DNA of 25,384 nt. Source: a virus. The notes under the pieces are model-generated. The model was given only the letters and a program-made list of their open reading frames with translations. It was not told where the DNA came from and ran no database searches. Numbering within the stretch: the stretch's first letter is position 1; the number at the start of each line of letters is the position of its first letter. The DNA lies in IMG/VR virus record IMGVR_UViG_3300007276_000273, positions 1 through 25,384 of that record. One strand, given 5' to 3'. Shown piece by piece: positions 2,229-25,309 of the stretch. Made by a program: the position numbers and the translations under genes.

Positions 2229-2546
2229 ATGAGTTATTATAATAGATATAGTGAATTTATCATCAATGGTGATTATGTTATGGTACCCAGTATAGTACTA
2301 ACACCAAAATCCAGTGATAGAAAAATAGTTTATAAAGTAGGTAAAACTAGGTTAGATAAGTTATCCGACCAGTTCTATAGTTCACCATACTATGGGTGGT
2401 TGATAATGCAAGCAAATTCAACATACGGAGGACAAGAATGGAACATACCAGATGGTACCATAATTACAGTACCCTTCCCATTAATGCAATCATTAGAGGA
2501 CTACAAATCTAAATTAGACCAACACTTCCTCTATTATGGCAGATAG
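2229..2546 (+). CDS. 53: Baseplate wedge protein, T4 gp53-like
   Basis: This 105-residue protein carries the arrangement typical of the gp53 family: YYGWLIMQAN near residues 54-63, then WNIPDGTIITVPFPL near residues 71-85, then a C-terminal DYKSKLDQ helix. In T4, gp53 is a wedge component that helps join wedges around the hub. The region with the PDGT turn resembles a LysM-like fold used in contractile injection systems at this position. At 105 residues it is shorter than T4 gp53 (196), so it may be a minimal version. The gene starts three bases after the preceding stop and overlaps the hub gene by 11 bases, implying translational coupling. The family call rests on motif recognition by eye. 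Confidence 0.72.
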   Translation: MSYYNRYSEFIINGDYVMVPSIVLTPKSSDRKIVYKVGKTRLDKLSDQFYSSPYYGWLIMQANSTYGGQEWNIPDGTIITVPFPLMQSLEDYKSKLDQHFLYYGR

Positions 2547-5500
2547 TTTAAATTCAGGTAACATATTAACAACACAAATAGGTGGAAATGTAGTTTCCAT
2601 AGACCCAAATAAAATAGTGGGTAGTGACGGTGTTGTAAAAGATAGATTAGTTAATCAAGAAGATTTTGTTATGTATGCTAATCTTACAGCTAAAATTTTC
2701 CCTAGAAGTAAATTATTAGTTGGTGCAGCTGCGGGTGATGAAATAAGTGTAGAAATAGCAGACGGTGAACTAAATTTTCTAAAACCAAAAGGTAAAAATT
2801 CTTTTGACTCTGATTGGACTGACGCATTCACCGACCCAGACGTAAACCAAAAAATAAAAACTAAAACAAAAGAAGGTGTAACAATATCACAAAGCATTAA
2901 TAACCAAAATGATTTCCAAGGATTTGGAATAACTTCTATAAGTATTAAAATTAACGCATCTTATATACCACAAGTCACTATAAATTTTACTGACGTAAGA
3001 GGTAAGACACTATTTGAACAAGCTAAAGTTAATACACCTTACACCGCTTTTTTTCACCTACCTTACCCCACATTCTTTTTAACCCTTAAAGGTTATTATG
3101 GAAAAGCTGTACAATACCAGTTAACTTTAGAAAAATTTGTATCTCGTTTTGACCCATCTTCTGGAGATTACTTAGTTACGTGTGACTTTAAAGGTAACCA
3201 CATAGCGATGCTAAGGGACATAAATATGCATGAAGCAGTTACCGCACCATATATGTACCCAACTAGACAAGACGCATCTACTGGTACAATACAAATGACA
3301 AAAGGTAGACAAGTATTGGGTGAGGTTTATAGAGAATATCACACAAAAGGGTTAATAGGTGATAATTTATATGATAAAAAATATACAATAGTAGAGTTAA
3401 TAGAAAAAATACAATCTATAGACAATGACATGTCACAAGTCTTTGGTAAAGCTAATTTACAAAGTACAACACATAAATTAGAATACGAAGAAACTTTGGA
3501 AAAGTTTAGAGAAGCTGTAACTGGTACAAAAGGTTGGGTTGGAAAATATCTAGACACATCTAGTGTTGGTAGACGTAATGTGACGGTAGACGAACCCCCA
3601 TACCCACCATTACAAGGACAACCAAACCCACCAACACCAAACACAGGTAGGACCATAGTCACCAACGCTTACCCACTAAAAGGAATGTCAGCCGCTACAG
3701 CGGAAACAGACCCAACAAAAAGAAAAGAAAGACAAGACGGATTAGTTGATGAAGCAAAAAACGCTTTAAACGCGATAGTAAAAAAATACTTTAAGTTATT
3801 ACAACAAAACCCTACATTTAAAGCTAGAAGTGAGGTAGACGGTGGTAAATATGCTGTCGCTACAAGATTCAGTGACCCAACATACGACATTTTTGAAAGT
3901 TCAAAAATTACTAAAGCAGTAAAAATAGGTGGTATAACCACACAATTACCCACACAACAAGCACCTTGGTTTATGTTTGAAGGTAGTACGGATAGTTTTG
4001 TGTTTATATGGACAACAACAAAACGAATATTTGACGCCAAAGCAAAAACTATGGCAGAAAATTTAAGTGAAGAACTTAATGGTAGACTACAAAAAGCTAT
4101 AGGATTTAAACCGACCATAAGGAATGTTTTTGCTATTATTTTAGCGGGAGCTGACACTTTTTTAAAATTGTTAGATGATGTACATACAGAAGCTTTTTCA
4201 CAAAGACAAAATGAACAAAGACTAGCTGTCGCAGTTTCTTCAAACGATTCAAACGCAACCAACCAAATTGTATATCCATGGCCACAATATTATAAAATTG
4301 AAGAAGAAGAAAAAGGTGGTAATTGTACCACAACTAATTCAGTTTTAACTTATCCAGGTGCAAATGAAGTTATCGCCAATACTTTGGGTAACGACCAAAA
4401 AATATGGCCAGAGGTTGCATTTGTGGAAGAATATACAAAAGCAACAAATTATAAATTTAGTTTTTTTAGTCCACCAGTTGAAAATACGGCGGTTGATAAA
4501 GATTTTACACCGATAACACTTTACGATTGGTTACCGACAGACACACCATACTCGAGTCTTGAAGACTTAGATATATGGTTTGAAATCCTAGATAGAGCAC
4601 AAAAAGCAGTTCTAAATGGTGGGTTAGTGTCTAGATATACTGGACAAGTTGGTGTCTCACCTAATTCTTTAATCGGTGGGGGTATAGTAGAACTAGCAAA
4701 ATATGACGCATTAAACCTATACCAAAGAATTAAACCATATAGTACACAAAAACAGGTGTTTATGGATTTAGGTGGTCTTGGACAAATGTTAACCATTTTA
4801 AAAGAAGCGGACCCTAGCAGATTCAGACAATACCAACTATATGGAACCATAACACCATACACAACAAAAAGTACATTCACATTAAACTACAAACAATCTA
4901 GATTTACCGTTATACCACAAAACTTTGAAGAAAACACCAAAGTACTTTTAGAGGGTAAAACTAATGGTATGTATGATTTAGCACCCTGTATTTATGGTGC
5001 ATGGGTACGTAGTAACTTTGCAAATGCTAACACAGTATCACAAAATGATTTCTTTGACATTAGTAAGAATGTACAATATGATATAAATGAAAAAAATGTT
5101 TTAACAGACACCTGGAGCACCACCTATCTAACCAGAGCAAAGTACCTAACCTCCAAGTTTGTAGACGAAGACCAAGAAAAACTAATAGAAAGAAAAAATA
5201 ATTCAAATGCGTTAAACACACTAACTACGGCAAATGAATCGTATGAATCATTCGCAGCACATAAATTTATAACAGAAGGTGAAATACACGGTTCACCAAC
5301 AGTAGCAACTATACCAGGGGGTGGAACCAATACAGAATTAGCTGCGGTAAGATTAACATCTATGTTAAACACACCTTACTTTATGAACGCATTAACCGCT
5401 GGTGCCGAGGCTGAAAAGGCAGGTACATTTAACGCGTATACACAAGCAGCATACTTATTTTTAAACTCATTACCAGTACCGACATTACGGGAAAAAGCCT

Positions 5501-8500
5501 TATATAAAGAAGGTGATAATCATGAATTTGGTAACTACATATCACAAATGTTTAATCAAATGCCTGCGATACACAATCTACCAATAGCATTTATGTTAAG
5601 GATTGGTTCTGTGTGGTGGAGGTATAAAACAGAAGTACAAACACAAGTTGACCCTTTAAACTCTATATGGGGTGATGTAGGTGTGGTGGGCCAAATAGGG
5701 TATACTGGACCAAGTAGTATTTATGAAACCCCATTAAATACAACTAATTATTATACATTTGTCGCGAGTAATGATGGTGTCACATCTTCTGGACCATACC
5801 CATATGTAAGTCACGATAATACTGTTGCTAACACTATAATGCAAGTGGGTGTTTACCCAAAACTAATAGATACCATTAATTTTATTGCTACTAATAGTAC
5901 TAATTATAACAATATTGGTGTTGGACAACTATTAAATAATCTTTTAGATTCTACGGGTAACGCACCTTTAACAATAGAACCTAACAGTGACATTAACTAT
6001 AAATCATTTGATAATGTTGATGTAAAATTTTATAGTGTTTATCTAAGGTCATCAAGTATAACGGTACCAGCCTTAGGTGTTACGACCGCAAATTCACCAG
6101 ACCCAGGAGGGTATACAATACTTTTCCCTTCTTCAGGTGGATTAAATCAAACAGACGCAAGTACATACGAAACACCAACATACGGTAATCCAGCTTTACA
6201 TAATGGAGCTAGTAGAATTTTATGGGGAGCATCTAACTATGGTTATTTTGAACACAAAGTAAATTACAAATCAACGGCTAGTCAGTACTTTAAAAATATT
6301 AATCCAGAACAAAACGAACAAGAAGATTGGAGTTTTAGTGAAGAATCTATATATGACACTATTGAGGTTCTTAGAGGTGTGTTTAATAAAGAACAATTAG
6401 ATGCTTTTGAACAAGAATTTCTAACTTTTTCAACACCAGGAGGGTCTAGTGCTCTAGGTGGTTCTTTAAAAGAATTAATTAGAGAATTGGTTGTTGTGGA
6501 AGATAGTTGGGTTAGTATGGTTGGAGACCTATCATCCATGTCCATAATACCTAACAGTAAAGAATTAGCAGAAGCACAAATGTTAAAATTCAACACAACA
6601 ATGTTTCAATTCTTAAATAAAAAAGTAGAATATATTCACAGAAGTACCACCAATCTAGATTTAGTTGTGAACAATCAAACACTACTAGAAAAATTACAAA
6701 CAATACACTCCATCAACAATAATTTGTGGCAGTATGATACTACTAGTGACACATCAAATGGTGAATCTCCATATGAAAACCTAACAGAATTATATGGTAG
6801 TTATGCTAATGGACTACAAATACCAACCTCAGGAAACTTTTTTATCGGTAACCCAATAGAATATCAAACAATAAGATTAGAAGTTGGTGAATTCTATAGT
6901 GGGACTATCACACAATTTAACAATTTAGTACCAGCTGATGACACCAACCCAATATACAAATTTTTTACAACTATAAATAAACCCAATTCAGCAGATGGTA
7001 TGGAATTTAGTGTGGCTAATATAGTTGATTTTGCACCTTTTATTAAACTATACGCTACACACTGTAATCAATATGGTCCTACACAAGCAAACGAATTTTT
7101 AAATAAATTCATCACCCAGATAGATTCTACACAAAGTACCCAAGAATTATACATTTCTAATTTATTAGAAGAACTTAAAAAGAACATAAAACAAAATTTA
7201 GAAACTGATAACACAACAATAAATGTTGTAACTGATGATAGACCAGAAGTTAAATCAGACGATATAAAATTAGAACTATACAATCAGTTTAAAACAATAA
7301 ATGATAGATGGGTTTCAGGAACAAACCTAACAGACCAAACCCTATTTGAAAAATTTTTATTTTTAGATAGGGCCAATCAAGATATAGGTGACCAGGCAAT
7401 AATTAATATATGGGACATACTACAACTAGATTCACCATTTACAGATACTAACTCTAAAACTTTAACACAAAGTGTGTCTAGTTACCTAAGTATTATATTA
7501 GCTAACAACTATTTTAATTTTATACCACTACCTTCATATATAAACTTTTTTAATATTGAAAAGAAGGGGACGGACACACAAGCTCAAGGAAATGCAATGT
7601 TTGGTACTTTTAAAACTGTAGACTATATAGACTCTTCACCAGCTTTTCTATGTCAATATGTTGGTAAACCGTCATCACAACTAAATGTTAAAACACCAAA
7701 CAATGGATATAATGGTGATTCATTTAACTACAACTCACCTAACTCACCACTGGTAACCCAAGAATGTGGTAATAAAGAACAATCTAATAAAGTTATGGGA
7801 TTCAACGTAGATTTTGGAATACCAAATCAAAATATATTTGAATCAATAACGTTAGACCAATCTCAGTTTCAAAACACATCTGAGAGTTTTAAGGTACTAC
7901 AGAGTATGGCGGATTCAGGTGGTGGAAATGCTACCTCACCAGCTTCCGCATCACTATTTAACGTATACGCTAGTAGGTCTTATACAGCAAGAATAACCTG
8001 TGTTGGAAATGTAACAATACAACCAACCCAATATTTCCAACTAAGATACCTACCAATGTTTAATGGGCCGTATTTAATTATTAATGTTGAACACGAAATT
8101 AGACCTAATACTATAGAAACAACTTTTGAGGGTGTAAGAGTACCTAGACCATCTCTTCCAGCCATAAGTGATTTGGTACAAAGAGTTAATGTTAAATTAT
8201 ATGAAAAAGCAGAAGACAGACTAGATAAAATACCTATAGATTTGTATTACGATGGTTTAAGCGCTACTGAAAGTCAAAAGAAATTAGCAGTAACTCAAAA
8301 TGACTATATAGCTACAGGGGTAACATATCAAACACCACCACTAAATGATGACAATGTTACATGGGTAGATGTTACTTTAAGTGCCGGTACATTCATCGTT
8401 ACACCAAATGAGGACCCAGAAAAACGACACTTAGGTGTGGATATTTGCCCAACATCAGATAACTCTGTAAATGCTAATAGTGAAAATGGTGGTATAGACA

Positions 8501-8883
8501 TTTACCCATCAGTCTATGGTGTGGTAACCAAAGTAGTTGATGGGTGTAAACCATTACAAGAAAGTGACGGATGTTCCAAATACGGTAATCATGTTGAAAT
8601 TAAAACAAATATAAATGTAGACCCAGATGAAGAAGGTACGGCTTATTATTTGACACGGTACGCTTTTCTAAGAGAAGGGATAACAGTAAATTTAAACGAC
8701 TCAATACAAAGAGGGTTTGTAGGTCCTGGAATGGGTAATAAAGTGTTGGGTAAAATGGGAAATAGTGGACTATCAAAAGACACACACGTACATTTTGAAA
8801 TAAAAAGGGGTGTGAAACAACAAGGTAAAATAATAGAACATTATTTAAACCCAGCAGAATTTTTACCCAGGACACGTCAATAA
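2536..8883 (+). CDS. Giant baseplate hub protein with C-terminal M23 metallopeptidase
   Basis: A single uninterrupted ORF encodes 2115 residues. N-terminal residues about 129-225 look like a hub-type domain (SYIPQVTINFTDVRGKTLFE, then LPYPTFFLTLKGYYGKA). Residues about 1810-1871 (YTARITCVGN, LRYLPMFNGPYLIINVEHEI) resemble the last beta-domain of gp27 or late-control-D hub proteins. Residues about 1950-2110 are an M23 (LytM-type) zinc endopeptidase: HLGVD supplies H1965 and D1969, and THVHFEI supplies H2084 and H2086, a complete ligand and catalytic set. The protein would sit at the centre of the baseplate and cleave peptidoglycan cross-links during DNA entry, replacing the T4 gp5 lysozyme. 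The roughly 1,500 residues between the hub parts are not recognised. The M23 call is strong; the hub call is a family-level inference. Confidence 0.82.
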   Translation: MADSLNSGNILTTQIGGNVVSIDPNKIVGSDGVVKDRLVNQEDFVMYANLTAKIFPRSKLLVGAAAGDEISVEIADGELNFLKPKGKNSFDSDWTDAFTDPDVNQKIKTKTKEGVTISQSINNQNDFQGFGITSISIKINASYIPQVTINFTDVRGKTLFEQAKVNTPYTAFFHLPYPTFFLTLKGYYGKAVQYQLTLEKFVSRFDPSSGDYLVTCDFKGNHIAMLRDINMHEAVTAPYMYPTRQDASTGTIQMTKGRQVLGEVYREYHTKGLIGDNLYDKKYTIVELIEKIQSIDNDMSQVFGKANLQSTTHKLEYEETLEKFREAVTGTKGWVGKYLDTSSVGRRNVTVDEPPYPPLQGQPNPPTPNTGRTIVTNAYPLKGMSAATAETDPTKRKERQDGLVDEAKNALNAIVKKYFKLLQQNPTFKARSEVDGGKYAVATRFSDPTYDIFESSKITKAVKIGGITTQLPTQQAPWFMFEGSTDSFVFIWTTTKRIFDAKAKTMAENLSEELNGRLQKAIGFKPTIRNVFAIILAGADTFLKLLDDVHTEAFSQRQNEQRLAVAVSSNDSNATNQIVYPWPQYYKIEEEEKGGNCTTTNSVLTYPGANEVIANTLGNDQKIWPEVAFVEEYTKATNYKFSFFSPPVENTAVDKDFTPITLYDWLPTDTPYSSLEDLDIWFEILDRAQKAVLNGGLVSRYTGQVGVSPNSLIGGGIVELAKYDALNLYQRIKPYSTQKQVFMDLGGLGQMLTILKEADPSRFRQYQLYGTITPYTTKSTFTLNYKQSRFTVIPQNFEENTKVLLEGKTNGMYDLAPCIYGAWVRSNFANANTVSQNDFFDISKNVQYDINEKNVLTDTWSTTYLTRAKYLTSKFVDEDQEKLIERKNNSNALNTLTTANESYESFAAHKFITEGEIHGSPTVATIPGGGTNTELAAVRLTSMLNTPYFMNALTAGAEAEKAGTFNAYTQAAYLFLNSLPVPTLREKALYKEGDNHEFGNYISQMFNQMPAIHNLPIAFMLRIGSVWWRYKTEVQTQVDPLNSIWGDVGVVGQIGYTGPSSIYETPLNTTNYYTFVASNDGVTSSGPYPYVSHDNTVANTIMQVGVYPKLIDTINFIATNSTNYNNIGVGQLLNNLLDSTGNAPLTIEPNSDINYKSFDNVDVKFYSVYLRSSSITVPALGVTTANSPDPGGYTILFPSSGGLNQTDASTYETPTYGNPALHNGASRILWGASNYGYFEHKVNYKSTASQYFKNINPEQNEQEDWSFSEESIYDTIEVLRGVFNKEQLDAFEQEFLTFSTPGGSSALGGSLKELIRELVVVEDSWVSMVGDLSSMSIIPNSKELAEAQMLKFNTTMFQFLNKKVEYIHRSTTNLDLVVNNQTLLEKLQTIHSINNNLWQYDTTSDTSNGESPYENLTELYGSYANGLQIPTSGNFFIGNPIEYQTIRLEVGEFYSGTITQFNNLVPADDTNPIYKFFTTINKPNSADGMEFSVANIVDFAPFIKLYATHCNQYGPTQANEFLNKFITQIDSTQSTQELYISNLLEELKKNIKQNLETDNTTINVVTDDRPEVKSDDIKLELYNQFKTINDRWVSGTNLTDQTLFEKFLFLDRANQDIGDQAIINIWDILQLDSPFTDTNSKTLTQSVSSYLSIILANNYFNFIPLPSYINFFNIEKKGTDTQAQGNAMFGTFKTVDYIDSSPAFLCQYVGKPSSQLNVKTPNNGYNGDSFNYNSPNSPLVTQECGNKEQSNKVMGFNVDFGIPNQNIFESITLDQSQFQNTSESFKVLQSMADSGGGNATSPASASLFNVYASRSYTARITCVGNVTIQPTQYFQLRYLPMFNGPYLIINVEHEIRPNTIETTFEGVRVPRPSLPAISDLVQRVNVKLYEKAEDRLDKIPIDLYYDGLSATESQKKLAVTQNDYIATGVTYQTPPLNDDNVTWVDVTLSAGTFIVTPNEDPEKRHLGVDICPTSDNSVNANSENGGIDIYPSVYGVVTKVVDGCKPLQESDGCSKYGNHVEIKTNINVDPDEEGTAYYLTRYAFLREGITVNLNDSIQRGFVGPGMGNKVLGKMGNSGLSKDTHVHFEIKRGVKQQGKIIEHYLNPAEFLPRTRQ

Positions 8884-17470: not shown

Positions 17471-17938
17471 ATGCCAACACAAAGATACGGTATAACGTTC
17501 CCATTTGTTGATAGTCCACAAGGATTCTTTCTAGGATTAAATACAGATACTGATAGTGAAGTGAGGTCAAACCTTATTCATCTTATAGTTACGCCTAAAG
17601 GTTCTAGGTATTTTTTACCAGATTTTGGTACTAATTTAAATAAATATGTTTTTGAGTTAATGGACACAACCACTAAAATATCTATTGAAAGGGAGATAAG
17701 AGAAGCGGTTAACAAATATATACCTAGTTTAACTATAAACAATGTAGAGGTTAAAACATTAGAAGACTTAAAAGCGGAAGAAAAACTTAATGAACAAAAT
17801 ACTGATTTATCTATGGATGATGGTAATATGAGTTTTGTTGGTGAAGCACAAAGAAATTATTCTATGAGGGTAAGAATTGATTACACAGCTGGAGATGGTG
17901 TGTTTGAAACTAAAGATTTTGTTATAATAGATTTATAA
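17471..17938 (+). CDS. 25: Baseplate wedge protein, T4 gp25-like
   Basis: The 155-residue protein has the gp25 core: an N-terminal extension, ESVRSNLIHLI-like helix (residues 30-40), then TPKGSRYFLPDFGTNLNKYVFE (key residues: G44, R46, P50, D51, F52, G53, L56, F61, E62), and EREIREAVNKYIPSLTINNVEV near residues 73-94. gp25 is a small, conserved wedge protein related to the sheath-interacting component of type VI secretion (TssE) and sits at the junction of wedge and sheath. T4 gp25 is 132 residues. The extra length here includes an acidic linker at about 97-123. The next gene starts one base after the stop, so the gp25-gp6 pair is coupled as in other contractile tails. Confidence 0.9.
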   Translation: MPTQRYGITFPFVDSPQGFFLGLNTDTDSEVRSNLIHLIVTPKGSRYFLPDFGTNLNKYVFELMDTTTKISIEREIREAVNKYIPSLTINNVEVKTLEDLKAEEKLNEQNTDLSMDDGNMSFVGEAQRNYSMRVRIDYTAGDGVFETKDFVIIDL

Positions 17939-17939
17939 A

Positions 17940-19778
17940 ATGGCAGACAAAAAAATAGCATATACAGAAAGAGATTTTTTAGGTGTTAGAAATGAATTAC
18001 TAAGGTTAACTAGTACCTATTACCCTGATTTAATTAAAAACGCAAACGATGCTTCAATATATTCAGTATTTTTAGACCTTAATGCTGCGGTATCAGATAA
18101 CTTAAATTTTCAGATTGACAGAACCTTTCAAGAGACAGTATTACAATATGCCCAGGAAAGAAGTTCTCTTTACAATATAGCAAAAACTTATGGTTTAAAA
18201 ATACCAGGAAATAGACCATCAGTTACAGTTTGTGACCTATCTATTATAGTACCAGTTTTAGGTGATAAAGAAGATTTTAAATACTTGGGTAAAATAAGAG
18301 CTGGTTCACAATTTAGAGGGGCTGGACAAGTATTTGAGTTAGTAGAAGACTGTGACTTTTCATCACAATATAACGCAGAGGGAGTACCAAACCAAACTAA
18401 AATACCAAATAGAGATTCTAACGGAATAACCCAAAACTATACAATTGTAAAAAGAGAAGTTATGGTTAATGGGATAACCAAAGTATTTAAAAAAGAAATT
18501 AATGATGCTGATAGTAAACCATTCTTTAAAATATTTTTACCAGAAAAAAATGTTATAGGGGTTACATCAGTAATACAAAAACCAGGACTAGGTTATCAAA
18601 CAATACCATCCAACAGTGAGTTTATATCTACATCAACCAATAAATGGTACGAAGTAGAAGCTTTAGCTCAGAACGAAGTATTTGTAATAGACCCATCAAT
18701 ACCAGCAGATATACCAGGAGTTAAAGTTGGTAAATACATAACCGTACCCCAAAGATTTATAACTGAATTTACACCAGAAGGATTTTTTCATTTAACATTT
18801 GGTAGTGGTAACCAAACATCACAAGATTTATTGGATAACTTTTCTTCTAAAGGGGTTAAACTAAATATGTCTAAATTTTTAAATAATATAGCTTTAGGTA
18901 ACACTGTTAACGCAAATACTACATTATTTATACAGTATAGAGTAGGTGGTGGTAAAGCAGCAAATATTGGTGCTGGAGCCATAAATAGTGTTGGTGTTAT
19001 AGATTTTGTTGTGGGTGGACCAAGTCAACAAATAAACCAAACAGTAATTAATAGTTTAACTGTTACAAATACTACAGCTGCAATTGGTGGTGCAAATCAA
19101 ATGACACCAGATGAAATAAGGAATTATATATCTTTTAATTTTGCAGCACAAAATAGAGGTGTTTCTATTAATGACTATGTTTCAAAATTAAGGACTATGC
19201 CTGCCACATTTGGGGCACCAGCAAAAGTGGGTGTCACAGAAATAGAAAACAAAGTTAATGTAAATGTACTTTCTTATACACCGGACGGTAAATTAACTTC
19301 CCTAGTTAGTGAAACACTTAAAAGTAACATAGCAAATTATTTGTCTAATTATAGAATGTTAAATGATTACGTAGTTGTTGGAGCTGCTAGAGTAATAGAT
19401 TTAGCTTTTTCTATTGACCTCATACTAGAAAAAAATGCAAACGAAGGGGAGATAGTAACTAACGTAATAACTAAAGTAAGTGAATATTTTGCTGTTGATA
19501 AAATGGAGTTAGGTGAAGATTTAGCTTTAGGTAGTCTAAGAGCATTTATAATGACACAACCAGGTGTACTTAATTTAACTGATATATTAGTTTTTAATAA
19601 AGTCGGTGGAAACTACTCACAATCAGTAACAACACAACCATATGTTAATGCTACCACAAAACAAATAGGACTACTAGATGATACCATATATGCTCAACCA
19701 AATGAGATACTACAAATTCGTTTTCCAAACCAAGATATCGCTATAAGGTACAAAAAACCAAGTAAACCGGTCCTTTAA
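17940..19778 (+). CDS. 6: Baseplate wedge protein, T4 gp6-like (baseplate J family)
   Basis: This 612-residue protein has the gp6 layout. The N-terminal region YTERDFLGVRNELLRLTSTY is followed by SIYSVFLDLNAAVSDNLNFQ (residues about 40-60), the conserved helical start. A long beta-rich middle follows, and the C-terminal VVGAARVIDLAFSIDLILEK to LGSLRAFIMTQPGVLNLTDI (about 475-545) matches the baseplate-J type C-terminal domain. T4 gp6 is 660 residues and forms the inner ring that links wedges. It directly follows the gp25-like gene, which is the standard order. No membrane segment or catalytic motif is present. Confidence 0.85.
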   Translation: MADKKIAYTERDFLGVRNELLRLTSTYYPDLIKNANDASIYSVFLDLNAAVSDNLNFQIDRTFQETVLQYAQERSSLYNIAKTYGLKIPGNRPSVTVCDLSIIVPVLGDKEDFKYLGKIRAGSQFRGAGQVFELVEDCDFSSQYNAEGVPNQTKIPNRDSNGITQNYTIVKREVMVNGITKVFKKEINDADSKPFFKIFLPEKNVIGVTSVIQKPGLGYQTIPSNSEFISTSTNKWYEVEALAQNEVFVIDPSIPADIPGVKVGKYITVPQRFITEFTPEGFFHLTFGSGNQTSQDLLDNFSSKGVKLNMSKFLNNIALGNTVNANTTLFIQYRVGGGKAANIGAGAINSVGVIDFVVGGPSQQINQTVINSLTVTNTTAAIGGANQMTPDEIRNYISFNFAAQNRGVSINDYVSKLRTMPATFGAPAKVGVTEIENKVNVNVLSYTPDGKLTSLVSETLKSNIANYLSNYRMLNDYVVVGAARVIDLAFSIDLILEKNANEGEIVTNVITKVSEYFAVDKMELGEDLALGSLRAFIMTQPGVLNLTDILVFNKVGGNYSQSVTTQPYVNATTKQIGLLDDTIYAQPNEILQIRFPNQDIAIRYKKPSKPVL

Positions 19779-19895: not shown

Positions 19896-22800
19896 ATGGG
19901 TAAATCATTTAGAGTAAGGACGGATGTTAGACGTGGTGGGGCAAAAGACAAAAATGTAACTTTTGAACTAAAACAAAATTTCGATTTATTAGAAATTTTA
20001 AGTCTTTCGTTAACACAACAAGAGGTCTACACACGTATGTGTGCTGATTTTGGTGTTGTGATAGGTAGGGTAATCACCAACGGAGGATTCGGGATACCAA
20101 ACGCAAAAGTTTCTATATTCGTACCACTAAGTGAGGAAGATGAAGGAAATCAAGTAATAAAACAACTTTATCCATTTAAGGAACCATTTGACACAACAGA
20201 GGATGGTAAAAGATATAACCTTCTTAGTAGTGAACCAAACTTCGACTGTCACGTAACAGTAGGGAGTTTTCCAACACTAAATGACGTTTTAAATAAACAA
20301 GACGTTAAATATGTTTATGACAAATATTACAAATACACAGTAAAGACTAACGAATCTGGTGATTTTATGATATATGGTGTACCAGTAGGTGACCATACTA
20401 TTATAATGGATGTTGATGTTAGTGATATTGGGTGTTTTTCTTTATTACCAGAAGATTTTAAGATAAAAGGGTTTGCGGATTCCGACTTCGATGGTGCAAA
20501 ATTTAAAGATGACCAAGTAATAAACAGTTTACCCCAAGTACTAAACCAACAAAAATCGATAGATGTTCGACCTTTTTGGGGTGATGAAGAATTTTGTAGA
20601 GCCGCTATTACTAGAGTTGATTTTGATTTATCCGTAACCGGATTTAAATTAGAACCAAACGCAGTCTTTATGGGTAGTACAGCTAGTGATACAGATAAGG
20701 ATTCTGTTAATAGAAATTGTAGGCCTAAAGCAGCGATGGGTGAACTATGTAGTTTAATATCCAAACCAGGAATTATAGATTGTGTTAGGTATACACCATT
20801 TTTCAAAGACGACCCAAACGCTTATCCAGCATATACCCTTGGAGGCTGGGGTGCACCGATAGGTGGAGAAGTACCTATACTTGAAAGATATTACCTACCA
20901 AATGGTGGTAGAGTAATAGACGATAGTGGTTCATTCTTAGTTCACATGCCAATGAATATGGATTACATGGTAACTAATGAATTTGGCGACATGGTATTAT
21001 CAGATGACCCAACTATAGGAGTACCAACTAGAACACGAGTTAGATTTAGAATAAGACCAGAACAGGCAACAGGGAGTGCAAGACAAAGAAGAATTGGTAG
21101 TTACCTAGTACCCAACATTAGAGAGTATTATGACCCTTGGCCTCCAGCTAATGTTGATGGTGACTGGCCTGGAATAGACCCTACCTCATACACTTTTTCT
21201 GTGGAATATAGTGACTATAATCCTTGGGCACAAAGAAATATGATGCCTGCAGCGAAAGACGTATTCTATGATATGACTTTTAATAGGGTATACACCTATT
21301 CACAATTTCACGACCACATTAAACATGGTGGTAGGAGACAATTTGTAGGTATAAAAAATATATTACCAGAATCAGACCAACAATGTGCTACAACAGCAAT
21401 GTTTTTTCCAATAAACAGTGCGGTTAGAGCTCCTAGTTTAATGGTATTTCTATGGATGTTCCTAATAGATTTTTTAGGTATGATTTATATGTTCCTAACT
21501 CTGCTAGTGTCGACACTTGCTTTAGTTTTAGGTATAATTTTAGGTATAGTTTTGGTGATAGTTTATTTTATATGTGTAATGTGGTGTTTCATATACGACA
21601 TTTATATTGGTATTTGGGGGTTTACCATATTAGATATGTCGGATATAATTCCTGCTCCACCTGACGATTGTGGGGTTATTTGTATTTTTTCTTCTGACTG
21701 CTTCGGATGTGGAGCTGCTTGTAAGTATTTTGGTTTAAGGACTGGATTTGTTTTATTTACGTTAAGACAAACAAAATATCCAGAATGTGAAAAGTGTATG
21801 TGTAGAACTATGGGTGACCCAAACACAGAAGATTCTTTAAACTTTCTTGCGTCACAATTTATTTGCCCAGGAGACTTGCCAGATGGGGCCCTGCAAAATT
21901 ATGCACCCCAACCCTGTCCTGTGGGTGATGCCGACCCAGACCCTAATAGTGGGCCTACTTGGGCTCACGATTGCTGTCAAGTACCAGAAGAAACAAGAGT
22001 GTGTTGTCCTGACCATTATGGATTTAATTCAGCTGACCCTAACGACCCACAAACAAGTGGAACTACACGGGATGGAATTGCTGGTGGTGGGTGTTACGTT
22101 AAAATAATATGTTTTAACCCTGGATGCCTACCATTCAACTACAACCTTAGAGTTTTAATTGAGTGGACTAGAAGAGAAAAAATATCACAAGCTTTATGTA
22201 ACGGTGTTATGAATTATTTCTGGGAAAATAGTTGGGTAAGTGGATTCCTATATCAGTTCCAGTTTAGAGCAAAATTAGAATATGACCAAGTTAATGATAC
22301 CTATGCTAGTTCAGGAACTAAATATTGTAAAAAATTAGTATACCTTCACCCCACTGAACATACTTTTTATTATAGGTCTACACCGTTTAAAGTTACAGAG
22401 ATAGGCCCATTAGATGGTAGTTTTATTGGTGATGATGATGGTGTTTACAATCCTTGGTGGGCTTTTGCTGGTAGTAGTGGTAGTAACCATGCAACTGGTG
22501 ACCAAGCTAGACACATACTATTTCCAACAACACTAGTCGATATGGGGTCAAGAAACCAATGTATACAACAAATATGTCTAGACCCAAAATACGCTAACGA
22601 ATGTTCAGTTACAGACCAAATAGGTAGTACAACATTCCAAGACATTACGGAACTTGTTTCAGATGCATACAATCTTAAAATGCAACAACCTGAAGCCTCG
22701 TTATCAACCTTTTTCCCACGACCAGAATTTGAAATAGGTGGTGATGTTGCACAAGCACTAATGCAAAACTGTATGTTAGGTGTTGAGGGTTACGAAGCAA

Positions 22801-23519
22801 ATATGGGTACAACAGCTTGTGACTGTGATTATGACACACAAATGTCTACACCCCCAGCAGACCAACCACCAAATAGTGGTTTAACATACCCATCACCTAA
22901 TTTTACCGGTGGAACATACATACAACACGCTCTTAACGTAAATGACATAAATAATGACGCTACATTTACACATACCCTTTTATGGGAACCTTTATTATTT
23001 ACTACGTCCACCCAAACTATTATGAGTGGACCAGATTTAATAGATTGTGTCACAATGGAATTATCCGCATCTAGTCAAAACGTACCATTTTATCCATGGC
23101 ATTTAGCTGCGGCAGGAGCTGCCACACTTGGTGGTCAACCAATTGGTGGTTATGGGAATGTTTGGAATGATTGGTTAGGTACCGTAGGTGAATATAGATA
23201 TGCTTTTGGTATACCTGGTCCAGCAATGTCGATATTACCAGCAATTGAGTACGCAACGGCTGAAGGAGCAGTACTACACCCAACCAATAGTCCCTCACCA
23301 CTAATATTCGACGGTAATTTCCAACACTATATGGGTAACCCACCCTTTTCATACCCACAAAATAATTATCCAGTAATGAATGGTGTTGTACCAGCTAGTG
23401 ACTCTTATGTGTTTTCACAACCACTATTTTATTATTTTGGTTTAAGACCAGGCGCAACATCATTTAACACATTTGTTAGAAAATATATAGATGAAGAATT
23501 AGCTGATACTGTAATATAA
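19896..23519 (+). CDS. Giant baseplate-position protein with membrane-type core and Cys-rich region (gp7 position)
   Basis: The 1207-residue product starts with a beta-sandwich resembling carboxypeptidase-regulatory-type domains, split by an insertion: GRVITNGGFGIPNAKVSIFV (about residues 57-76) and NESGDFMIYGVPVGDHTIIM (about 152-171). Residues about 515-576 are almost wholly hydrophobic (for example LLVSTLALVLGIILGIVLVI) and could form two or three membrane helices. A Cys-rich region follows (residues 592-745, about 17 cysteines, with CFGCGAAC, CEKCMC, HDCC and RVCCP), then a Gly/Pro/Asn-rich virion-like C-terminal part. No enzyme motif is seen. Order (gp25, gp6, then this) puts it where T4 has gp7 (1032 residues), but no sequence similarity to gp7 is evident. 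It ends in TAATG, sharing one base with the next start. Confidence 0.75.
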   Translation: MGKSFRVRTDVRRGGAKDKNVTFELKQNFDLLEILSLSLTQQEVYTRMCADFGVVIGRVITNGGFGIPNAKVSIFVPLSEEDEGNQVIKQLYPFKEPFDTTEDGKRYNLLSSEPNFDCHVTVGSFPTLNDVLNKQDVKYVYDKYYKYTVKTNESGDFMIYGVPVGDHTIIMDVDVSDIGCFSLLPEDFKIKGFADSDFDGAKFKDDQVINSLPQVLNQQKSIDVRPFWGDEEFCRAAITRVDFDLSVTGFKLEPNAVFMGSTASDTDKDSVNRNCRPKAAMGELCSLISKPGIIDCVRYTPFFKDDPNAYPAYTLGGWGAPIGGEVPILERYYLPNGGRVIDDSGSFLVHMPMNMDYMVTNEFGDMVLSDDPTIGVPTRTRVRFRIRPEQATGSARQRRIGSYLVPNIREYYDPWPPANVDGDWPGIDPTSYTFSVEYSDYNPWAQRNMMPAAKDVFYDMTFNRVYTYSQFHDHIKHGGRRQFVGIKNILPESDQQCATTAMFFPINSAVRAPSLMVFLWMFLIDFLGMIYMFLTLLVSTLALVLGIILGIVLVIVYFICVMWCFIYDIYIGIWGFTILDMSDIIPAPPDDCGVICIFSSDCFGCGAACKYFGLRTGFVLFTLRQTKYPECEKCMCRTMGDPNTEDSLNFLASQFICPGDLPDGALQNYAPQPCPVGDADPDPNSGPTWAHDCCQVPEETRVCCPDHYGFNSADPNDPQTSGTTRDGIAGGGCYVKIICFNPGCLPFNYNLRVLIEWTRREKISQALCNGVMNYFWENSWVSGFLYQFQFRAKLEYDQVNDTYASSGTKYCKKLVYLHPTEHTFYYRSTPFKVTEIGPLDGSFIGDDDGVYNPWWAFAGSSGSNHATGDQARHILFPTTLVDMGSRNQCIQQICLDPKYANECSVTDQIGSTTFQDITELVSDAYNLKMQQPEASLSTFFPRPEFEIGGDVAQALMQNCMLGVEGYEANMGTTACDCDYDTQMSTPPADQPPNSGLTYPSPNFTGGTYIQHALNVNDINNDATFTHTLLWEPLLFTTSTQTIMSGPDLIDCVTMELSASSQNVPFYPWHLAAAGAATLGGQPIGGYGNVWNDWLGTVGEYRYAFGIPGPAMSILPAIEYATAEGAVLHPTNSPSPLIFDGNFQHYMGNPPFSYPQNNYPVMNGVVPASDSYVFSQPLFYYFGLRPGATSFNTFVRKYIDEELADTVI

Positions 23520-25309
23520 TGGCTGACGACAAAAATATAAGAATAGTACGTGGGGAGTCTAAATTTGCAGGCTCACCTAATAGAGAACTAAAATTACAAC
23601 CTTATTTAGATGCAACAAATAGACAACTAAATGAAGGTGATAGAAACTTAGTATTAAATCTTAGAGACCAATTTGATTTTGAACGGTCATACTCAACCAT
23701 ATATAGACTATATGGTAAAATAGATGTTTTATATAACAACATTATAAGTGGGACAACACAAGACACTGATTTTATGGGGTCAATGTACTTTATACCAGAT
23801 TATATTGGTTGTCCACAAACCCTAGGTGTTCCACCATCAAACTGTTCCGGACTACCCCCAGCAGACACATTTTCATTTATACCACCAAAAAGATATGGTA
23901 TAACTTCAAGTCACGCGGGCTGGGAACCCCTACTCGCATATCAAGATAATTGGGTACAATATATATCTTATATCCATGACGCGGATACACAACAAAATAT
24001 GGAGTATTATACTGATTACACAACTTCCTCTGGTATGCAATTCGTTGCTGGAGATGGAATACCTTTTACAGTTAACATAACTATAACTGATGGTAAGGAA
24101 GTGATGCAAATAATTACACCTGTAAAACACAATGTACAACCAGGAGAATACATAGAATTCCAATCAGGGGCAACTACATTCGGAAGTAACCCACCTAATT
24201 TAGTGGTAGACGTACCTATAGCTGTAACTTTCCCAAGTCCATCTGGACCACAAACAATATTTAAAGTAGATTATTTAGGTAATGGGTTGGAAAATTCAGA
24301 ACACTACGTAATTAATGTTACAACATTGGGGTTAGACGCTGCTTCTATACCGACAAAACCCGTAGGTACATTAAAAAGAATACTTAACCCAGACAATATG
24401 TTAGAAACAAAATCTGAATACTATTGTCAAATACACAAACTAATAACCAATCCAACTGATTTTACATTTGATAGAACAGCTTTTGAAAGGGGTATCTATA
24501 ATAAAAAAGGTAGGGTGTTTCCCGCAAAAAGAACCCCAAATTACTTAACAAAAACTGTAATAAATCAAGAATACAATTCGTATTTGTGGAACTCAAATAT
24601 AAATATAAATAGTGGTGATTATTATGACCATCTAAATAGACCTTTAACCGATTTTTATTTAACAATTTTAACCACAAATAGAAACTTAATTTGGGATTGG
24701 GATGCTGGTGGTAATTCTAGTCCAGCTGGATATGGTTGGGGTTGGAACTTTAAAAAAAATGGTGTGGTAGACCCATTTGTAGATAACGCAACCAACCCAG
24801 TTAATCTAACTCAAAGTGGTAACTTAGGTGTCACACCATTACCATTAAGTGGGTCAACTTTTAGGGGTGCATTTGCTGAATACAACCCTTTTGAATTAAA
24901 AGAAACAATAATTTCACAAATAGGACATTCATTAAAGTTTAATGTAAATACTATGTATAAGGTTGGTGGTGCTCAATATGACCATGTCGATTCTATATTT
25001 AAGTACAACCCACATCACAGAATACCTATAAGAAAATTATCTAATTATATAAGTTATAATGATAGTCTGTTTACATCCCCCCAGTATGCTGTTTATTCTT
25101 TATCAGAGGAAACATTTAGGTGGAGAGAAATTTTACCGGTAGAAGTTTATGAAGATGGGGTTAATGGCGTTAGTTATCCCTATCTAAATGATGCACACTA
25201 CCCCTATTATAATTTAGAGTTTAAAATAGAGGCAGTAGGACCGGCATTACTAGCACTTACCTCCGAAACATTAACTATACTAACTGAATACACAGATGGC
25301 TGTCAATAG
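23519..25309 (+). CDS. Unknown structural protein at the gp8 position (596 aa)
   Basis: The 596-residue product starts on the last base of the previous stop codon (TAATG), so the two are translationally coupled. It opens with a basic, disordered-looking MADDKNIRIVRGESKFAGSP, then a helical NRQLNEGDRNLVLNLRDQFD stretch. The rest is beta-like and rich in Asn, Tyr, Pro and Gly. There is no membrane helix, signal peptide or catalytic motif. Following gp25- and gp6-like genes and the gp7-position gene, it occupies the place of T4 gp8 (334 residues) but is nearly twice as long and shows no clear similarity. A baseplate wedge or peripheral structural role is inferred from position only. Confidence 0.6.
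   Translation: MADDKNIRIVRGESKFAGSPNRELKLQPYLDATNRQLNEGDRNLVLNLRDQFDFERSYSTIYRLYGKIDVLYNNIISGTTQDTDFMGSMYFIPDYIGCPQTLGVPPSNCSGLPPADTFSFIPPKRYGITSSHAGWEPLLAYQDNWVQYISYIHDADTQQNMEYYTDYTTSSGMQFVAGDGIPFTVNITITDGKEVMQIITPVKHNVQPGEYIEFQSGATTFGSNPPNLVVDVPIAVTFPSPSGPQTIFKVDYLGNGLENSEHYVINVTTLGLDAASIPTKPVGTLKRILNPDNMLETKSEYYCQIHKLITNPTDFTFDRTAFERGIYNKKGRVFPAKRTPNYLTKTVINQEYNSYLWNSNININSGDYYDHLNRPLTDFYLTILTTNRNLIWDWDAGGNSSPAGYGWGWNFKKNGVVDPFVDNATNPVNLTQSGNLGVTPLPLSGSTFRGAFAEYNPFELKETIISQIGHSLKFNVNTMYKVGGAQYDHVDSIFKYNPHHRIPIRKLSNYISYNDSLFTSPQYAVYSLSEETFRWREILPVEVYEDGVNGVSYPYLNDAHYPYYNLEFKIEAVGPALLALTSETLTILTEYTDGCQ

Follow-up and report, generated by a model that had tools for sequence, protein, structure and literature searches.

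Tape measure and ejection proteins of phages are known to carry transmembrane-like segments with which they enter the host membrane, and to our knowledge it is still poorly understood how contractile phage DNA crosses the inner membrane. We found no precedent in the open-access literature for baseplate proteins with transmembrane helices. The wedge subunit represented by T4 gp7, or BW3 (XM1 gp17, P2 gpI and R-pyocin PA0619), is a large protein encoded directly after gp6; T4 gp7 carries one membrane-like stretch (Kyte-Doolittle hydropathy [KD] 2.07 at 886), and a predicted integral membrane domain is annotated in its record. In XM1, a helix-turn-helix arm of gp17 joins the (gp6)2-gp7 core bundle (PMC10457771). 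For Agrobacterium phage Milano, the published account describes inter-subunit disulfides in the sheath and baseplate and a Cys content of 2.1% in the structural proteins (PMC10811340).

Here we analyzed a 25,384-nucleotide stretch of viral DNA (IMG/VR record IMGVR_UViG_3300007276_000273, positions 1 to 25,384), referred to as the window, in which the gene following gp6 encodes a protein of an undescribed family, termed P1. In order, P1 comprises an N-terminal motif, beta-sandwiches, a hydrophobic helix, a Cys-rich region and a conserved C-terminal part. The features of the locus are as follows.

17471..17938, plus strand: gp25-type wedge/sheath-initiator protein (PF04965; Pfam/PHROG)
17940..19778, plus strand: gp6-type wedge protein (Baseplate_J, PF04865; Pfam/PHROG and homologue searches)
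19896..23519, plus strand: P1, 1207 aa (ORF call, alignments and AF2 model)
19953..20030, plus strand: conserved N-terminal motif of P1, residues 20-45, NVTFELKQNFDLLEILSLSLTQQEVY (alignment and AF2)
20040..20648, plus strand: transthyretin/CarboxypepD_reg-like beta-sandwich with an insertion, residues 49-251 (Pfam below cutoff and fold match)
21429..21623, plus strand: hydrophobic block, residues 512-576 (Kyte-Doolittle and family comparison)
21438..21596, plus strand: predicted single continuous hydrophobic helix, residues 515-567 (AF2 pLDDT ~88 and periodicity at 100 degrees)
21624..22127, plus strand: fast-evolving Cys-rich region, residues 577-744 (alignments and Cys counts)
21786..21803, plus strand: CxxCxC core C631/C634/C636 (YPECEKCMC; alignment A4)
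22077..23516, plus strand: C-terminal part with the conserved blocks GGCY, NYFWENxWVSGFLY, SQxVPFYxW and YYFGLRPGxTSxNTF (alignment)
23519..25309, plus strand: next gene, 596 aa, no family match (homologue synteny)

P1 thus resembles the gp7/BW3 subunits in its size and its place directly after gp6, and T4 gp7 in having a membrane-like stretch. Its hydrophobic block is, however, longer and far more hydrophobic than that of T4 gp7, and its N terminus opens with a short conserved motif, after which comes a transthyretin-like sandwich; in the monomer models a helix-turn-helix arm for the core bundle is not evident. Like the tape measure and ejection proteins, it would be a virion protein with a membrane-type helix; unlike these helical proteins of the tail or head interior, P1 is mainly beta-sandwich and is encoded with the wedge genes. 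With 3.0% Cys it compares with the Cys-rich contractile baseplate proteins of Milano, whereas the accessible part of that account mentions no hydrophobic helix (PMC10811340); the P1 cysteines may bind metal or form disulfides. We tentatively infer that P1 is a baseplate-associated virion protein whose oligomerized hydrophobic helix would be shielded in the virion and would engage the host membrane at contraction.

A protein family encoded beside gp6

With P1 as a single-sequence query we recovered 33 loci, while an alignment search found relatives on at least 588 IMG/VR contigs; a second, deeper alignment gave at least 578 loci, overlapping that set. Complete ORFs range from 835 to 2356 aa and share the start M-x-K-S-F-R-V-R-T. 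Two relatives (L072 and L089) are ~2100 aa long; in the former, a long insertion separates the block from the conserved C-terminal part. The family is absent from Pfam (above cutoff), PHROGs, the PDB and the isolate collection searched, in agreement with the earlier note, which knew of no family explaining this architecture. P1 had no match in PHROG, none above cutoff in Pfam and none in the PDB, searched with both the single sequence and a profile; nor did tblastn with three diverse members and megablast with a fourth return a match among 50,697 phage records. A Pfam/PHROG scan of 29 members yielded weak PF13620 matches, a DUF5122 beta-propeller in 2/29 and isolated weak matches to Reticulon (E = 0.004) and phrog_8884 (E = 0.001). 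The BFVD contained one clear relative, A0A8S5LA66 of Myoviridae sp. ctPuP5 (E = 5e-51, 977 columns, 25% identity), a full-length structural match and hence a family member, with no function assigned.

A gp6 homologue lies upstream of the P1 relative, on the same strand, in 179/179 loci with at least 1.5 kb of upstream DNA, and among loci with sufficient downstream sequence, 103/109 carry a homologue of the window's 596-aa next gene. The earlier note had assigned P1 to the gp7 position. Synteny bears out the position but not the identity: hhalign of A2 against T4 gp7, an insensitive comparison with a single T4 sequence, gave a probability of 0.1, and P1 had no PHROG wedge match. Nor did hhalign match the family with the large gp6-neighboring protein of Flavobacterium phage vB_FspM_immuto, likewise a single-sequence target; distant homology may escape such targets. 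Since the label gp7 reflects position only, "gp6-adjacent protein" should be preferred pending a structure. The large proteins near gp6 in immuto (1265 aa, with no detectable similarity to P1), Mel-JY01 and LR756508 lack the hydrophobic block.

P1 might instead be a membrane protein outside the virion, acting for instance in superinfection exclusion or envelope modification, that merely shares the tail operon, which would agree with the TM-like segment and the lack of a structural family match. We regard this as quite improbable in view of the 179/179 association with gp6, the tail genes on both sides, the pilin/transthyretin-type sandwiches, the size of 835-2356 aa and the conserved C-terminal part.

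P1 directly follows gp6 in the window, and in clade 2 a small ORF intervenes. It encodes a protein of ~72-165 aa that starts with MGCxCK or MGCxxCK and has a hydrophobic segment and often an acidic tail at its end. The motif matched in 44 loci (among them L110, L119, L124, L131, L136, L139, L145 and L150), and four of these proteins had no PHROG match below E = 0.01. In clade 1, to which the window belongs, a search for such a protein found a single candidate, in the relative G001.

The hydrophobic helix and the Cys-rich region

The nearly uncharged hydrophobic block that the earlier note had placed at residues ~515-576 is real. From residue 512 to ~575, the 19-residue KD average exceeds 1.6 almost without a break and reaches 3.26, the 50-residue maximum is 2.54, and 0/2000 composition-preserving shuffles matched either maximum. 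Only D525 and D568 are charged within residues 515-576. The longest charge-free run (42 residues, 526-567) was equalled in 78/2000 shuffles; it is the hydrophobicity of the block, and not its charge-free length alone, that is exceptional. In a simplified calculation, flat Hessa-scale sums were -5.5 for residues 541-561 and -0.7 for residues 517-537. On these simple scales P1 is hydrophobic enough for bilayer insertion, with the 19-residue maximum of 3.26 and two candidate 21-mers. No comparable block occurs in the other tail-related ORFs of the window (gp25, gp6, a 2115-aa hub candidate, the next gene and three ORFs at 1-2546); the runner-up among those examined was gp6 (KD 1.96 over 20 residues).

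This pattern recurs throughout the family. The block is located at residues ~440-620 in every member long enough to test, and it was kept in 71/71 members of a further set as well as in every tested member of the first, two sets that share a few contigs; no homologue lacked it. Its sequence drifts although the block itself is always kept, and its length varies from ~27 to 108 residues. In some long relatives, blocks of 60-100 residues look like several membrane helices.

The AF2 model of P1 (75 sequences, residues 1-1200; pLDDT 76.3, pTM 0.77) is beta-rich, and one continuous 53-residue helix projects from its transthyretin/CarboxypepD-like sandwiches. The block is thus predicted as a helix and not as ordinary buried beta structure, and the smallest complete relative, L148 (835 aa; pLDDT 80.7, pTM 0.82), has a 29-residue helix at the equivalent place. 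A two-helix hairpin in the window's block is disfavored, since both models show one helix and the hydropathy phase is continuous. A PDB fold search with the two models returned mainly transthyretin/CnaB/pilin-type sandwiches, with no baseplate protein among the matches listed, in which sandwiches dominated. Domain 1 (residues 49-251) aligned by VIA-align with carboxypeptidase N (Z 8.4, 79 residues, rmsd 2.2; best value for L148, 7.5), and PF13620 matched P1 below cutoff (E = 0.0019) and 9/29 members at E = 0.05; profile and modeled fold together identify it as a transthyretin/CarboxypepD_reg sandwich. In L148, a second transthyretin-like match covers model residues ~249-653, with a Z of ~6.5 that is not strong evidence (106 residues, rmsd 2.8). 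This model suggests that the helix and Cys-rich stretch of L148 form an excursion from, and back into, one sandwich domain.

The motif at residues 20-45 has invariant residues, yet it reaches a pLDDT of only ~45-55 when modeled alone, and in the monomer models the conserved N-terminal 45 residues have low pLDDT and form short helices or none. Invariance combined with low pLDDT indicates that residues 20-45 are probably a partner-docking segment. The same residues resemble the N terminus of a 294-322-aa protein encoded two genes downstream (L032:11317-12198), the shared form being K-x-V/I-T-x-x-L/I-x-Q-x-F-D; this similarity is weak (hhalign probability 64.6, E = 6e-5, 28 columns). The two stretches may possibly represent a common docking motif.

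Mean hydropathy over the 53 helix residues showed a Fourier peak at 100 degrees per residue (p < 0.001 against shuffled columns), and sliding windows held a roughly constant phase from 515 to 559. The helix has a broad hydrophobic face and a narrow, mostly small or polar stripe, formed in the window by D525, G528, Y531, T535, S539, A542, G546, G550, Y557 and C564; in clade 2, one stripe position is Asn in 37/41 sequences. With heptad-like spacing of the stripe and a hydrophobic remainder, this is an inverse-coiled-coil pattern, coherent across 515-559. Such an inverted pattern suits helices that associate along the stripe and turn their remaining faces to lipid or another hydrophobic surface.

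The side-chain volume SD was 20.9 in columns of the hydrophobic face, compared to 9.3 in hydrophobic columns of the N-domain (p = 2e-9), consistent with lipid-facing or loosely packed positions; it was not above that of the fast-evolving C-terminal part (p = 0.38). The conservation and hydrophobic moments were 24-55 degrees apart for most stretches and not opposed, with weak statistics, an arrangement more typical of a protein-packed face. Taken together, the two tests do not decide between lipid and protein surroundings.

The same helix might instead never meet a membrane: three or six P1 helices, lying under the returning Cys-rich chains, could form a buried oligomerization core that holds the baseplate together. 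We consider this a credible possibility, ranked second. The conserved face lies close to the hydrophobic face, the helix of L148 leaves and seems to re-enter one sandwich domain, and in the window the chain that follows the helix is Cys-rich and in part hydrophobic. T4 gp7 is a wedge subunit and nevertheless has a TM-like stretch, a shorter one, and covalently stabilized, Cys-containing baseplates exist, as in phage Milano (PMC10811340). A buried core agrees less well with the extreme 50-residue hydrophobicity, with a side-chain volume that is unconserved relative to the N-domain core, and with a block length of ~27-108 residues, unexpected for a fixed core. The two alternatives of the earlier note, membrane entry on contraction and a buried trimerization core with Cys knobs, remain the leading pair; an in-phase 53-residue helix with a Cys-rich segment behind it is compatible with either.

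P1 contains 36 Cys (3.0%), 16 of them in residues 577-740. A Cys-rich cluster had been proposed with about 17 Cys in 150 residues; the cluster is genuine and the count is 16, a maximum reached in 1/2000 shuffles. Beyond the helix lies the CxxCxC at residues 631-636, whose cysteines C631, C634 and C636 are kept in 41/41, 41/41 and 40/41 short (mostly marine) members and in 30/31 long members each (A4). Twelve Cys are kept in most short and long A4 members (49, 180, 234, 275, 285, 497, 631, 634, 636, 733, 768 and 811), whereas the short, mostly marine lineage accounts for many others (e.g., 602-609, 693/694, 703/704 and 739/744). Long insertions of some longer relatives fall in this region. The segment is probably stabilized by metal or disulfides.

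Possible engagement of the host membrane at contraction

P1 would be a structural component of the distal part of the contractile tail, in the baseplate or at its periphery, and would probably use its invariant N-terminal motif to dock on the gp6/gp25 wedge. From a body of transthyretin/CnaB-like sandwiches, the predicted helix (53 residues; 29 in the smallest modeled relative) would project, carrying the Cys-rich segment beyond it. Copies of P1, three or six by tail symmetry, may associate via the small/polar stripe into a bundle that is shielded in the virion and becomes exposed by host contact and sheath contraction. The exposed bundle could then enter the host envelope and either anchor the baseplate or line a passage for the tube.

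Several observations argue for such membrane entry: hydrophobicity beyond that of normal soluble proteins (KD maxima over 19 and 50 residues and the Hessa-scale sums), the retention of the block in all members despite sequence drift, the tolerated side-chain volumes, the inverse-coiled-coil stripe and the multihelix-like blocks of some long members. The small MGCxCK membrane protein between gp6 and P1 in clade 2, the fixed place in the tail operon of contractile phages and the precedent of tape measure and ejection proteins point the same way. On the other side stand the proximity of the conservation moment to the hydrophobic moment, a volume tolerance no greater than in the C-terminal part, and the shorter membrane-like stretch in T4 gp7, a wedge protein. 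A straight 53-residue helix (~80 A) is also far longer than one bilayer needs, and the second sandwich of L148, apparently built from strands flanking the helix, argues against a constitutive single-pass membrane helix.

The signal-recognition particle would be expected to recognize a segment as hydrophobic as the P1 block during its translation. This would agree with baseplate assembly at the host inner membrane, into which the helix would be inserted at that stage, the adjoining MGCxCK membrane protein of clade 2 serving as its partner, and a strongly basic stretch just after the block (e.g., in L048, L052, L056 and L068) resembles positive-inside topology. Virions would then need to carry or cut the membrane segment, and clade 1, including the window, lacks an MGCxCK gene at the gp6-P1 position; we consider such an assembly-stage anchor unlikely. 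Overall, we favor membrane engagement at contraction over a buried core, and both over an assembly anchor and, least probable, a role outside the virion.

It is conceivable, if doubtful, that a large, uncultured lineage of contractile phages has, in its baseplate, hydrophobic helices with Cys-rich ends, bundled into an element dedicated to host-envelope insertion at contraction. We know of no such membrane-penetration element in characterized contractile phages, where penetration is attributed to the tube and spike. If true, the P1 helix would be a concrete candidate for the inner-membrane step of DNA passage. Hundreds of environmental phages, a number of them represented by contigs of 150-350 kb, conserve a membrane-type helix beside gp6, and even with the helix as a buried core the P1 family would be a widespread and unnamed element of the baseplate operon.

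Phage lineage, host and neighboring genes

In the relative G001 (155,892 bases, the contig of L032), a contractile sheath, tail tube and portal are recognizable, which identifies the P1-carrying lineage as myophages. Relatives of the window's gp6 occur in the cultured Flavobacterium phage immuto (26%), Microcystis phage Mel-JY01 and a 484-kb metagenomic phage (26-28% identity), and the sole match of its RecA-like recombinase is in immuto (43%). These relatives make a Bacteroidota host, as the earlier note had supposed, plausible by sequence similarity. A distant syntenic locus (L110, QCKH01000004.1), however, lies on a contig of 84 kb that belongs to a Prochlorococcus single-cell genome assembly.

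At positions 2536-8883, the window encodes the 2115-aa protein, whose C-terminal domain is M23-peptidase-like (below the Pfam cutoff) and which is possibly a giant tail hub/lysin fusion. Genes between it and gp25/gp6 have putative replication and nucleotide functions, named from their sequences. Three genes downstream of P1 in G001 (L116:5533-12894) lies a gene for a 2454-aa protein with 199 Cys (8.1%) and no PHROG match; shorter views of it are L009:12436-15663, with 71 Cys in 1076 aa, and L032:12201-15488. It may be a giant tail or adhesion protein, rich in Cys, of the P1-carrying lineage.
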